Assembly: GCA_017556125.1 (NCBI GenBank)
Contig: JAFZCW010000047.1
Coordinates: forward strand, 1 to 36,450
Direction of reading: 5' to 3'
Origin: Clostridia bacterium
GTDB taxonomy: Bacteria; Bacillota_A; Clostridia; Christensenellales; CAG-138
Length of the DNA: 36,450 bases
Positions 26,372 to 36,164 of this stretch are shown here, in pieces. Made by a program: the position numbers and the translations under genes. Below the pieces are notes generated by a model. It was not told the origin of the DNA, ran no database searches, and saw only the letters and a list, made by a program, of their open reading frames with translations. Position 1 is the stretch's first letter. The number at the start of each line of letters is the position of its first letter.

Positions 26372-26405
26372 TTTATCAAAATGCGTCATTGAAATATGAT
26401 GATGA

Positions 26406-26430
26406 AAAAGGCACCGGATCCGGTGCCTTT
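26406..26430. terminator. Bidirectional terminator between tmcAL and the coaD-linked gene
   Basis: A perfect 12-bp palindrome arm (AAAGGCACCG around GATC) lies 35 bases after the tmcAL stop. On the minus strand it continues into TTTTTC, a proper terminator for the rsmD-coaD operon. On the plus strand the tail is TTTCGTTC, weaker but usable. Confidence 0.85.
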
Positions 26431-26440
26431 CGTTCATTAT

Positions 26441-27382
26441 TTATTTGCGGGGTTTACGGATTTTCCGCTTCGGGGGTTCGTCCTCGAAATCGTCATCCTC
26501 TTCATCCTCGTCTTCATCATATTCTTCAACTTCGAACATGCGCTGGAAGAAGTTCTTTTTCTTCGGCTTCACTTCTTCTTCCTCTTCATCGTCAAAGGAG
26601 AACGCTTCCTCTTCGCGGACACGCTTACGGTCCGCTCTCGGAGCATAGTCAGGTTTGGGAGCGGGAGCGCTCTGTTCCTCCGCATACGCCTGATACTCGT
26701 TCCTGTCGAACAGAACGGTATCCTGGGTCGGAACGCTTTCCTGCGCCGCCGGTGCCGGCCTGTATTCCTCGGCTTTTCTTGCGCGGACGTAAGTCTCATT
26801 GAAATTCCGTTCCGGCGCCGTCTCCAGATCCGGCTGCGGTACCTCCGGTTCGTCAGAGAGCTCAGCCCTGTTTTCGGCGATCATCCTGTGATACTCGCTC
26901 AGATAATTCTGAAGGTCGAGAAGGATGCCCTCGGCATAATTCTTCGCGCCGTTATAGATGGCGTTCGCGTTTGTCTCGGCTTCCTGAGAGATTTCGTTCG
27001 CGCGGCTGAGCGCCTCCCTGTAGATCTCGGACTCGCTGACGCGCTGTTCATATTCCGTCTGGGCCTGCCTGTAGATGCTTTCCGCGTTGTTCTGTGCCTG
27101 CTGGAGGATCTGATCCGCTTCCTGCTGGGATTCGGCAATGATATCATCCGCTTTTTCCTTGGCGTCTCTGATCGTGTTCTCCGCTTCCGCTATAATGCCG
27201 GTCGCTCTCCTGATATCCTCGGGGATCGTCACCTTCAGGTCGTCCAGAAGATCAAAAAGCCTGTCGATTTCCACGACGCGCCTGTTCCCCTGTCCCGCGA
27301 ATTTTGTTTTCGGACTGTCTTCCAGTTCGTCCTCAATCCTGGAGATGATGCTGTAGATCTTCATTGTCTGTGCACTGCTCAT
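26441..27382 (-). CDS. Coiled-coil protein following coaD, with charged C-terminal tail
   Basis: A 313-residue protein in three parts: an N-terminal domain (KIYSIISRIEDELEDSPKTK, then RRVVEIDRLFDLLDDL, about 7-55); a long coiled coil rich in Glu, Ala, Gln (about 58-165); and a low-complexity tail (170-313) with Pro-rich, poly-acidic and basic patches (KPKKKNFFQRMF). The first two parts resemble a clostridial family that sits next to coaD and is often loosely annotated as ATPase or ATP-synthase-b-like; there is no nucleotide-binding motif. No membrane helix or signal peptide is visible. The ATG overlaps the coaD stop by 4 bases, with GAGAGG upstream. Function unknown; a scaffold or division-linked DivIVA-like role is speculation. 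Confidence 0.75.
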   Translation of the reverse strand: MSSAQTMKIYSIISRIEDELEDSPKTKFAGQGNRRVVEIDRLFDLLDDLKVTIPEDIRRATGIIAEAENTIRDAKEKADDIIAESQQEADQILQQAQNNAESIYRQAQTEYEQRVSESEIYREALSRANEISQEAETNANAIYNGAKNYAEGILLDLQNYLSEYHRMIAENRAELSDEPEVPQPDLETAPERNFNETYVRARKAEEYRPAPAAQESVPTQDTVLFDRNEYQAYAEEQSAPAPKPDYAPRADRKRVREEEAFSFDDEEEEEVKPKKKNFFQRMFEVEEYDEDEDEEDDDFEDEPPKRKIRKPRK

Positions 27383-27867
27383 TTTTTACTCAACCTCTCT
27401 GTAATAATTTGTAAAATGCAATCGGGGACAAGTCCCTTGATGTCTGCTCCTAAACTGACAACTTCCTTGATCGTGCTGGAACTCAGGAAAGAATGCGCCG
27501 GGGATGACATAAAGTACACCGTCTTGATATCCGGGGCAAGGTGATGATTCATCGCGTCGATCTGGAACTCATACTCGAAATCCGTAATAGCACGGAGGCC
27601 CCTGATCAGATATCCGGCTTCGATCTTTCTTGCGTAATCCACGAGAAGACCGTCGAACTGATCTCCAATCACATTCTTCAGGCCGTACTCCTTTATCACG
27701 GTGTTGATCATATCCACACGCTCTTCCGGTGAAAAGACGGGATTCTTTGACGTATTGTTCAGGACGCCGACGTACACCCTGTCAAAAAGTCCCGCAGCGT
27801 TCATCAGGACATCCAGATGTCCGATCGTGAACGGATCAAAACTTCCGGGATAAACGCAGATTTTCAT
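27379..27867 (-). CDS. coaD: Pantetheine-phosphate adenylyltransferase
   Basis: CoaD joins ATP and 4'-phosphopantetheine in CoA synthesis. The 162-residue protein starts MKICVYPGSFDPFTIGHLDV, with the T-x-G-H nucleotide motif at 14-17. It has YLIRGLRAITDFEYEFQ, the family substrate loop, and SSSTIKEV near the C-terminus. Both its ends overlap neighbours by 4 bases (rsmD and the coiled-coil gene). The rsmD-coaD pair is standard in bacteria. Confidence 0.97.
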   Translation of the reverse strand: MKICVYPGSFDPFTIGHLDVLMNAAGLFDRVYVGVLNNTSKNPVFSPEERVDMINTVIKEYGLKNVIGDQFDGLLVDYARKIEAGYLIRGLRAITDFEYEFQIDAMNHHLAPDIKTVYFMSSPAHSFLSSSTIKEVVSLGADIKGLVPDCILQIITERLSKK

Positions 27868-33569: not shown

Positions 33570-33770
33570 TCATTCGTCCGCGTTTTCGTTTCCATCCGCT
33601 TGGGTCCTAAGCAAAAACAGCTGTTTCAATTCTTCAACGCTTTTTACGGAAGTCCTGTTTCCCATACAGGCGGAACAGGTGTTGAAACAGTTCGGACAGA
33701 CACACATGCTCTCAACGCCTTTTTCGCTCTGGACCATATACTCGCCGCAAACCTGACAGCTGCACCTCAT
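33570..33770 (-). CDS. 66-residue cysteine-rich (zinc-ribbon-like) protein coupled to yqeB
   Basis: A small soluble protein with eight cysteines in its first 35 residues: C3, C5, C8 (CSCQVCG) and C23, C25, C28, C32, C35 (MCVCPNCFNTCSAC). A helical segment (SVEELKQLFLL) and an acidic tail follow. The pattern suggests two metal sites (zinc or Fe-S). The ATG overlaps the yqeB stop by 4 bases, so it is translationally coupled and likely works with yqeB. I do not recognise a named family. Confidence 0.72.
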   Translation of the reverse strand: MRCSCQVCGEYMVQSEKGVESMCVCPNCFNTCSACMGNRTSVKSVEELKQLFLLRTQADGNENADE

Positions 33771-34558
33771 CTTTTAAACTCCGACAGATGGAGAAGCGCG
33801 ACAACAACCGACGCGCCCATACATAATGCCTTATCCGAGATCGTATAGCAGTTTACGACAGCGCCCCTCGGATCGACATCCCCGCTTTTCATTCCTTCAT
33901 ATACTGCCGTTCCCGTAGGCAGGATTCCCCTGAGTACGCCTGCGATGGAAGCGGTCAGCGGCACTCCGTCGACATAAGCGCAGATATCACCCGCGTTCAC
34001 CAGATCTCCGATCTGCTTGACCTGCTGAAACGTTCCGGAAGCCGGCGCCCGCAGAATGCGTTCGATGGAAAAACCGGCGATCACGCCCGGAATTCCCGTG
34101 TTCGGTTTGGCGGAGCCTTCATAGTAGATCCTTCCCATCGTATGACCCCGCATCGTTTCGATTACAGCGTGACAGTCAACGCCTGCGCAGAATCCGGGAC
34201 CGAGCGCGATCACGACAGGCGCGTCATGGATCGTCGTACCCAGGTTTTCCTTTCCGAGTATCGCGTCAACAACGGCGTCCGCATGATACTCGCCGTTGCA
34301 GGCAGCCTCAGGATCCACAATAACAGGGATCATGCCTTCTTCAAAAACATGCTCCGCCTCTGAAACGCGGTCAATCCGCACGGCTGTTACGCCTTCAACC
34401 GTCGTCCTTCCGTTTACGATCGCTTCGGAAAAACAGACGGTACGCCGGATCGACGTCGGTTTTTCCACGTCGGTCATCAGCACGCGGAATCCGGCCTGAT
34501 GCAGCTGAAACGCAACGCCGGACGCGATATCACCGGCACCTTTTACAAGTATCTTCAT
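33767..34558 (-). CDS. yqeB: EF2563/YqeB family protein of the selenium-dependent molybdenum hydroxylase system
   Basis: A 263-residue protein with an N-terminal nucleotide-binding-like start (MKILVKGAGDIASGVAFQL, then FRVLMTDVEKPTSIRRTVCF). Later come ADAVVDAILGKENLGT, ALGPGFCAGVDCHAVIET, and a biotinyl-like domain (ILRAPASGTFQQVKQIGDLV; DICAYVDG). This matches the EF2563 family described with selenium-dependent molybdenum hydroxylases. The ATG at 34558 is chosen for family fit; it lies within the last 29 bases of yqeC, in another frame. No hydroxylase, selD or molybdopterin gene is in the window. Confidence 0.87.
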   Translation of the reverse strand: MKILVKGAGDIASGVAFQLHQAGFRVLMTDVEKPTSIRRTVCFSEAIVNGRTTVEGVTAVRIDRVSEAEHVFEEGMIPVIVDPEAACNGEYHADAVVDAILGKENLGTTIHDAPVVIALGPGFCAGVDCHAVIETMRGHTMGRIYYEGSAKPNTGIPGVIAGFSIERILRAPASGTFQQVKQIGDLVNAGDICAYVDGVPLTASIAGVLRGILPTGTAVYEGMKSGDVDPRGAVVNCYTISDKALCMGASVVVALLHLSEFKR

Positions 34559-35282
34559 GATAGAATCTTTCCTTCCAAACAGAGGACACAGCGCAGGAAT
34601 CCACGACGCTGCCGTCCAGAGATCGAATGATATCCATGCCGAGCCGCACCAGTTCATCCGTATCGGCTTTGTTCAGGATGACGGAGTATTTCATGGCGGG
34701 CAGAACGTTCTTCCGCAAAGCTTCCGGAGACTCCGCCAGGATCTTATAGTACGCGGGTCCGATCCTGTCTTCAGCGCCGATCCGCAGATCGCCATGCGCC
34801 AGTTCGTAACGGAACAGACACTCCTCCGCCCTCTTTCCGCACGCGTCCAGACCCATTACCGCGATCACATGGGCATTACATTCAGGGATGACCGGCTCAT
34901 GGGATGCTGGCAGTTTCAGCGGCAGTTTTTTGGCTCCGTCCGCCTCGATCAGAAGATAATCGCAGTACCTTCCGATCAGCGCAAAATCCGAATCCGGGAG
35001 CGAGATTTTTCCGTCGTCAGCGGGTTTGCCGATGCATACGGTCCGCCCGTTATCCAATAGCGCGGACACCGCATCGGCGTCAAAATCATCCAGTACAGGC
35101 ATATTATCCGGCCGGAACATGTGCGTAGAAGTCGTAATAATGATCCTTCCACCGCGGGCAGACAGTTCTTCCGCGAACCGGAACAGAAGAGACGTCTTTC
35201 CCCCGCCGCCGACAAAGGAAACCACACCCTTTTCAGGAAGTATACAGTCCGTTATGTTTTTTTCGGCCAGAACAGGCATCAT
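34530..35282 (-). CDS. yqeC: YqeC family putative selenium-cofactor biosynthesis NTPase
   Basis: A 250-residue protein with a P-loop near the N-terminus (GVVSFVGGGGKTSLLFRFAE), a Thr-Ser-Thr block (IIITTSTHMF), YLLIEADGAKKLPLK, and VILNKADTDE, as in the YqeC family paired with YqeB. The system is proposed to make a labile selenium cofactor for molybdenum hydroxylases. AAGGAG lies 5 bases before the ATG at 35282. It is the first gene of yqeC-yqeB-Cys-rich ORF, with a near-consensus promoter. Confidence 0.87.
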   Translation of the reverse strand: MMPVLAEKNITDCILPEKGVVSFVGGGGKTSLLFRFAEELSARGGRIIITTSTHMFRPDNMPVLDDFDADAVSALLDNGRTVCIGKPADDGKISLPDSDFALIGRYCDYLLIEADGAKKLPLKLPASHEPVIPECNAHVIAVMGLDACGKRAEECLFRYELAHGDLRIGAEDRIGPAYYKILAESPEALRKNVLPAMKYSVILNKADTDELVRLGMDIIRSLDGSVVDSCAVSSVWKERFYHEDTCKRCR

Positions 35283-35363: not shown

Positions 35364-35396
35364 AAAAAGATATGCACTTGATCCCAAATGCATATC
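35364..35396 (-). terminator. Terminator of the XRE-desulfoferrodoxin gene
   Basis: A 12-bp stem (GATATGCATTTG with CAAGTGCATATC, one G-U pair, 4-base loop) is followed on the minus strand by TTTTTAT. It lies 26 bases after the stop codon. Confidence 0.9.
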
Positions 35397-35421
35397 CGTT
35401 CGCTCTTCGTTATCAGTCCCG

Positions 35422-36015
35422 TCACCGTTTTACGGCTTCCGTTCGGAACAGACCGTGATGATTGCAGTAAGCGTAGATCCATTTCACCCTTCCTCTTTTG
35501 AACCTCGCCTCCGGGGCTCCTTCCGGATACAGTTTGATGAGCTGGATCCCGTTGTCACAAACGGCCGCCAGAAAAGAGATGGAATGCTGTTTTGTCATCG
35601 GATGCGGTATCTCCACAAAGAATTCATCCGCGTCAGCGGTCACTCTGATCTCGTGTTCCGGATCCGCGTCCTCAATCTGAAGCGGCGGAAGCGTGATTCC
35701 GCAGCAGCTGATGAGCGCTCTCCCGGTTGAATGGATCACATTCCCGCATACCGGGCATACATAAAAATGAGTCCGGAGCATATTGGCAGACCTGTTATCG
35801 TTCCGGATCCCCTCGCCGTTGAACAGTTCCATAACGGTGATGCCGAGTGCGGAGGCAAGAGGTTCCAGCAGCATGATATCCGGAAGTCCTTTCCCCGTCT
35901 CCCATTTGCTGACCGTTTTCGCGCTGACATACAGTTTTGACGCAAGTTCCTCCTGCGTCATATTCCGGTCTTCGCGCAGTCTCCGGATGGCATTTCCCGT
36001 CACATACCGGTCCAT
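35422..36015 (-). CDS. XRE-type transcription regulator fused to a desulfoferrodoxin-like domain
   Basis: A 197-residue fusion. Residues 5-65 are an XRE/Cro helix-turn-helix (IRRLREDRNMTQEELASKLY, then VSAKTVSKWETGKGLPD). Residues 84-110 match the desulforedoxin knuckle with C87-x2-C90 and C104-C105. Residues 115-192 match the superoxide reductase core with H121, H138 (PHPM), H144, and C184/H187 in YCNHHGLF, the expected four-His one-Cys iron site. The Glu-Lys before the first His in active enzymes (EKH) is Pro119-Glu120 here. AAGGAG lies 8 bases before the ATG. A superoxide- or redox-sensing repressor is the likeliest reading; its targets are unknown. Confidence 0.88.
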   Translation of the reverse strand: MDRYVTGNAIRRLREDRNMTQEELASKLYVSAKTVSKWETGKGLPDIMLLEPLASALGITVMELFNGEGIRNDNRSANMLRTHFYVCPVCGNVIHSTGRALISCCGITLPPLQIEDADPEHEIRVTADADEFFVEIPHPMTKQHSISFLAAVCDNGIQLIKLYPEGAPEARFKRGRVKWIYAYCNHHGLFRTEAVKR

Positions 36016-36041
36016 TTCTCTCAGCTCCTTTATGCTTCATC

Positions 36042-36054
36042 TGAATCAGATTCA
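36042..36054 (-). promoter_or_regulatory. Palindromic operator candidate at the XRE gene start site
   Basis: TGAATCTGATTCA is a perfect 13-base palindrome, and the overlapping ATCTGATTCAGAT is a second one. They sit immediately downstream of the -10 box, where RNA synthesis should start. This suits autorepression by the XRE protein. Confidence 0.6.
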
Positions 36055-36083
36055 TCATACCCGCTATCCGGTCTTGGAATCAA
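36054..36083 (-). promoter_or_regulatory. Promoter of the XRE-desulfoferrodoxin gene
   Basis: Minus-strand TTGATT (36078-36083) and TATGAT (36054-36059), spacer 18. The remaining gap up to the tRNA terminator (36084-36123) shows no other feature. Confidence 0.65.
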
Positions 36084-36123
36084 TCTACGCTGCATAGAGT
36101 AAACGGGTTTCAAACTTGATACA

Positions 36124-36159
36124 AAAGAAAAATGCAGAACCTGAACGATTCTGCATTTT
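36124..36159 (-). terminator. Terminator of the tRNA cluster
   Basis: An 11-bp stem AAAATGCAGAA/TTCTGCATTTT with a 9-base loop, followed on the minus strand by TTCTTTTG. It lies 5 bases after the tRNA-Lys CCA end. Confidence 0.88.
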
Positions 36160-36164
36160 CCGGA

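Follow-up and report, generated by a model that had tools for sequence, protein, structure and literature searches.

Our analysis suggests that the fused gene described here, which lies in a 36,450-nucleotide stretch of a Clostridia contig (the window), probably encodes a one-component iron-based redox autoregulator of the HTH-Dx-SOR class, with a nearly self-only regulon. In the proposed mechanism a dimer would bind a palindrome that abuts the –35 element of its own promoter and is centred around –43 to –44 relative to the predicted start site. The target would be the gene for the protein itself, which is mostly monocistronic; a minority of relatives may place a second gene under this operator, for a flavoprotein with a CX2CX2CX7C motif. 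Sensing would fall to the desulfoferrodoxin-fold domain, which keeps both iron sites, through either the redox state or the occupancy of the iron, and a change in the state of the iron would alter DNA binding and set expression of the protein itself. At the level of sequence this reading is carried by the architecture of the protein, the conservation of its iron ligands, the loss of the catalytic Glu-Lys pair, the coexisting normal enzyme, and the operator with its tie to the gene; from these we infer that the window protein binds the operator, binds iron and senses.

The gene is real (Table 1), and the fusion of an XRE helix-turn-helix with desulfoferrodoxin, first noticed in the bare sequence, is confirmed. 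Its product joins the DNA-binding domain to a complete desulfoferrodoxin fold in which nine of nine iron ligands are present, and the host is a gut-type anaerobe. The original prediction had placed a helix-turn-helix at the N-terminus, where domain search indeed finds HTH_3, and had listed nine ligands, all of which align with those of solved enzymes; it hinged on the C-terminal part folding like desulfoferrodoxin, and that fold was found complete. The protein thus has what defines the HTH-Dx-SOR class in SORGOdb, namely the N-terminal HTH and a Dx module with its CXXC and CC metal residues, all four aligned, together with the four His and one Cys of the SOR iron site (Pfam Desulfoferrodox, above cut-off). 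It lacks the Glu-Lys that directly precedes the first His ligand in Dx-SOR enzymes. P119-E120 stand there instead, as had been predicted and as the alignment with the enzymes bears out, and the NCBIfam equivalog model for Dx-SOR, TIGR00320, scores 43.1 bits against a cut-off of 146.9.

Table 1. Observed and predicted features of the fused gene and its surroundings in the window
Feature	Positions	Strand	Basis
HTH-Dx-SOR gene, 197 aa	35422–36015	–	Sequence and homology searches
HTH_3 DNA-binding domain, residues 10–63	35827–35988	–	Domain search and fold
Desulforedoxin-type site, residues 84–106, C87/C90/C104/C105	35698–35766	–	Domain match below cut-off; ligand columns; fold
Superoxide-reductase-type iron domain, residues 118–193, H121/H138/H144/C184/H187	35437–35664	–	Domain match, alignment, fold
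Pro119-Glu120 codons, at the place of the catalytic Glu-Lys	35656–35661	–	Sequence and alignment
Putative ribosome-binding site AAAGGAG	36025–36031	–	Read from sequence
–10 hexamer TATGAT	36054–36059	–	Promoter scan and column conservation in 67 aligned sites
–35 hexamer TTGATT, 18 bases from –10	36078–36083	–	Promoter scan and conservation
Predicted operator palindrome CTATGCAGCGTAG, 11/12 to CTACGC-GCGTAG	36085–36097	–	Conserved motif
Intrinsic-terminator-like site 3′ of the gene	35368–35397	–	Terminator scan (2 found versus 1.0 expected in shuffles)
Terminator-like site between upstream tRNA genes and the gene's promoter	36127–36161	–	tRNA and terminator scans

The loss of Glu-Lys pointed out by the original prediction is real but not special to the window protein: judging from the sequences compared, it is a mark of the fused family. 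We aligned 120 homologues, listed among at least 8000 matches that may include proteins similar only in the HTH, with 80 loci and two solved enzymes. C87, C90, C104, H121, H138, H144 and C184 are invariant in all 200 fused sequences (120 homologues and 80 loci), position 105 is Cys in 186 of them (His in 12, Asn in 2), and at position 187 there are 181 His, 18 Asp and 1 Ser. The catalytic Lys position holds Lys in none of the 120 homologues listed and in 4 of the 80 loci, and the catalytic Glu position holds Glu in 51 of the 120 listed and in 37 loci; the complete Glu-Lys-His occurs in 3 of the 80 fused loci (L070, L074 and L080). The stretch from C105 to H121 counts 16 residues in 198 of the 200 fused sequences versus 19 in the two solved enzymes. 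Further marks of the fused clade are Lys/Arg142 (200 of 200), Lys161 (199), Arg171 (197) and Glu131 (199), at which the enzymes align with other residues. The database search for the two-domain architecture and the alignment of residues 119–121, both proposed beforehand, thus return an architecture that is already known and a pair that is lost clade-wide.

One clade, with 14 of the 80 loci, changes C105 to His or Asn together with H187 to Asp or Ser (L036, L041, L047, L049, L054, L056, L065, L071, L074, L075, L076, L077, L078 and L080), so that its ligand set differs at both iron sites, with the type of operator unchanged. We rejected this covariation as independent evidence, since all 14 non-Cys105 rows belong to that single clade. 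By eye, the alignment of the divergent fused members L187 and L188 seems to show loss of the first His ligand, H121, too.

Normal enzymes coexist with the fused protein. Among the 30 genomes reached through fused-gene loci, 22 also encode unfused superoxide reductases (24 proteins), and each of the 24 keeps Glu-Lys-His; in the other eight none was detected besides the fused gene, many of the 30 being draft genomes. When the phylum was sampled evenly, eight of 149 genomes contained a clear fused member, with a ninth (G167) split, and seven of the eight carried a separate enzyme as well. For the prevalence we used a profile built from the fused-domain alignment (A3), because the Pfam Desulfoferrodox model misses many fused members. 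A tree built from 81 fused domains and 25 separate ones places the fused set in one clade with support of 100/100. Together, the comparison with the 24 enzymes, the 149-genome sample and the tree say that the fused branch, among those sampled, arose once and lost the catalytic pair, while its iron sites remained under selection.

Upstream of the fused genes a 13-base palindrome, CTACGCWGCGTAG, is recurrent, some 60 to 80 bases ahead of the start codon. Of the upstream regions from the 80 loci and the window, two were too short to use; among the remaining 79, 54 match at least 10 of its 12 fixed bases, versus 0.25 in dinucleotide shuffles, and 73 at least 9, versus 3.35. In 67 aligned sites TTG comes immediately after the palindrome and TA...T about 20 bases further, and none of the other nearby positions is as strongly conserved. 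The conserved layout is that of a sigma-70 promoter whose –35 abuts the predicted operator. The motif holds in 24 loci that were not used in its definition (28 fetched, two repeats and two without the N-terminus dropped), although some are closely related to loci used before: 14 carry at least 10 of 12 bases and 21 at least 9, versus 0 and 0.95 in shuffles, and none of the 24 proteins has Glu-Lys. The motif is absent from the divergent fused members L186, L188, L189 and L266. A palindrome abutting the –35 of the gene's own promoter is a new finding for the HTH-Dx-SOR class, and the window gene has at its own promoter the palindromic operator, a predicted site, that marks an autoregulator.

The DNA target had been expected at 36042–36083; the predicted operator adjoins that interval instead. 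A perfect inverted repeat inside it, TGAATCAGATTCA at 36042–36054, overlaps the –10 and was rejected as operator, as it is not kept in the closest relative (L001). The promoter scan of the window gave 3 hits versus 1.0 in shuffles, a total not above shuffles. A predicted operator centred there could serve an activator, as with lambda CI, or a repressor that occludes the –35; the weak –35, with TTG followed by unconserved bases, leans slightly to activation.

A terminator-like site lies within 110 bases after the gene in 42 of the 80 loci, versus 5.4 in mononucleotide shuffles; in the window itself the scan total (2 versus 1.0) is not above shuffles. The upstream genes in the window are tRNA-Lys, tRNA-Gly and tRNA-Gly. 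An operon with yqeC/yqeB (34530–35282 and 33767–34657) was rejected: the arrangement is common only to L001 as far as seen, and a terminator-like site intervenes, with a separate promoter-like site. No neighbouring family recurs in more than 11 of 81 regions by crude ORF clustering, and one ORF cluster of 17 loci consists, in the examples listed, of antisense ORFs of the fused gene itself. Elsewhere in the window, a 382-residue ORF at 26396–27541 on the plus strand, with no Pfam match at 0.001, lies beside a gene of the HIGH nucleotidyl transferase family.

The full operator–promoter pattern, CTACNNNNCGTAGRTTG-18 to 22-TANNNT, was searched in 394 genomes of one order, 72 of which hold the fused gene by the profile A3 search. 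It occurs at 23 distinct sites in 21 genomes, and among the matches listed there was none for the reversed pattern. All 21 genomes are among the 72 gene holders; the 322 that lack the gene have no site (p = 2e–17 if the genomes were independent, which they are not). The tie between site and gene is therefore to be read as strong, the figure not as exact. The exact pattern is strict, with no match in 51 of the 72 gene-holding genomes, and a match in only 21 of 72 implies that operator sites are often degenerate. Going by position, 20 of the 23 sites are the fused gene's own promoter. Of the other three, one precedes an HTH frame that stops after 45 residues, a decayed copy (L298); the site in L292 precedes a 37-residue remnant of an HTH, behind which comes a flavoprotein gene; and the last stands directly before a flavoprotein gene (L300). 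In L007 a further operator lies ahead of a truncated, decayed copy.

Relaxed searches point the same way. With up to two mismatches the 30 genomes yield 27 sites, of which the coordinates show 26 to be own promoters. Up to three mismatches give 75 sites versus 54 for the reversed pattern; minus the 26 own promoters and two palindrome duplicates, 47 remain, with no excess. Among 20 gene-holding genomes own sites were found in 16, next to nine other sites, five of them inside ORFs; 20 genomes without the gene gave three sites, all inside ORFs, and the reversed control gave 6 and 2 in the two sets. The best non-own matches of the flank scan were rejected as own sites with a misplaced start, plus the decayed-copy site of L007. 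Control of the separate SOR was rejected, the motif being at background upstream of the 24 separate SOR genes, and so was control of rubrerythrin (background at the loci of 30 rubrerythrin matches). A nearly self-only regulon is the best reading of these predicted sites. Three related genomes (G007, G314 and G368) share a second operator-like site, TCTACGCTGYGTAGGTCG, which is accompanied by a TATAA-like box and lies some 2.3 kb upstream of the fused gene; no recognisable gene follows it (L279, L280, L281 and L291), and it might belong to a small RNA or to a decayed copy.

The flavoproteins met at these sites belong to Pfam FMN_red. The fused gene is directly followed by a gene of this family in L024 (start/stop overlap), L066 (7 bases), L035 (∼140 bases) and L187 (∼20 bases), and C-x2-C-x2-C-x7-C is found in six of six copies (these four, L292 and L300). 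Such repeated adjacency is unlikely by chance, because genomes have only 1–10 genes of the family (ten genomes counted). The link concerns a minority: three of the 80 loci, L187 and the two operator-only cases. In the part of the source that we draw on, CX2CX2CX5-7C is the motif of iron-sulfur flavoproteins, whose levels reportedly rise in an amoeba exposed to oxidative or nitrosative stress (PMC3164229). A flavin-reductase-like gene, recognised by eye, is located 3′ of the fused gene in L059 (6754–7326), past a terminator-like stretch.

The ligands are kept, the whole clade has lost the pair, 22 of 30 genomes also encode a Glu-Lys enzyme and the operator is dedicated; the iron domain of this DNA-binding protein is therefore unlikely to be the cell's main superoxide reductase, and to that extent the original prediction is supported by inference. 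Loss of Glu-Lys alone is no proof of an inactive enzyme, and a working superoxide reductase lacking the conserved Glu has reportedly been described. Loss of the Lys should slow, not abolish, the reaction with superoxide, and a slower reaction is acceptable in a sensor. More tentatively, a superoxide-reductase fold may here have turned into a transcription-factor sensor, whose non-haem His4Cys iron would, with the catalytic Lys gone, directly read superoxide, peroxide or NO, in a self-only circuit to which some genomes add an iron-sulfur-type flavoprotein. Such a sensor, if real, would be distinct from the redox-sensing regulators OxyR, SoxR and PerR.

An almost self-only regulon is unusual for a sensor and equally suits a self-controlled enzyme or scavenger, which is the main rival. 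The protein would then be a slower superoxide reductase or a scavenger of superoxide or NO, and the HTH would merely set its own amount, which explains why nearly the sole operator in each genome is that of its own promoter. The nine retained ligands, the monocistronic arrangement and, in some genomes, a possible electron-donor flavoprotein alongside fit this as well, and neither Lys nor Glu is absolutely required for superoxide reduction. Yet 22 of 30 genomes already have the normal Glu-Lys enzyme, and for a conserved catalyst it would be odd to lose the E-K positions and the three-residue-longer loop across the clade and, in one clade, to change C105 and H187 too; we consider this explanation rather unlikely. 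The domain might also be a metal sensor, reporting by its loaded or empty state the availability of iron (or zinc) and not reactive oxygen. Conserved ligands around an unconserved reactive pocket, and the ligand swaps in 14 of 80 loci, could be expected of one, but no iron-uptake gene lies under the operator among the 23 sites, and the flavoprotein motif, tied to stress-raised iron-sulfur flavoproteins in the portion consulted of PMC3164229, suits a redox role, which makes a metal sensor quite improbable. That another regulator binds the palindrome and HTH-Dx-SOR is just a target is very hard to believe: the position of the motif is open to an activator or repressor of any family, but not one of the 322 genomes that lack the gene has the site, which accompanies even decayed copies of it, and a separate regulator would be expected to have further targets.

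If the iron-based autoregulator is the right reading, the operator, the near self-only regulon, the clade-wide loss of the pair and the recurrent flavoprotein make a concrete hypothesis with a defined DNA probe, and a protein class that was known but unexplained becomes directly testable as an iron-based redox switch. With the gene in 72 of 394 genomes sampled from one order of anaerobes, a working answer would extend to many bacteria of the gut and rumen. One cultured, non-pathogenic species that carries the gene is Eubacterium ruminantium (L054).

The class is already known by name since 2011, and its sequences are abundant. It was named in SORGOdb, where 19 of 325 curated SORs are assigned to it (Lucchetti-Miganeh 2011, PMC3116461); the passages of that paper seen give it no function or operator and make no comment on Glu-Lys. 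A search of open-licence papers found no function, operator or regulon for HTH-Dx-SOR. TrtA of Treponema denticola and FA519 of Filifactor alocis were considered as the same protein and rejected as different ones, going by the excerpts at hand. TrtA likewise belongs to the XRE regulators, comes from an anaerobe and has a link to oxygen stress, but it has 104 residues and, in the sections seen, no desulfoferrodoxin domain is reported for it (PMC12724145). The window protein shares with the SORGOdb class, as the consulted part of its description has it, the N-terminal HTH before a Dx-SOR module, and differs in the Dx spacing, x13 versus x15 (PMC3116461). With Dx-SOR, or desulfoferrodoxin (1dfx, 2ji1; TIGR00320), it has the fold and the iron ligands in common, but it lacks the Glu-Lys loop, is three residues shorter before the first His and has the HTH added. 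Compared with XRE/HTH_3 autoregulators such as P22 c2 and lambda CI, what sets it apart is a putative sensor domain of the desulfoferrodoxin fold.
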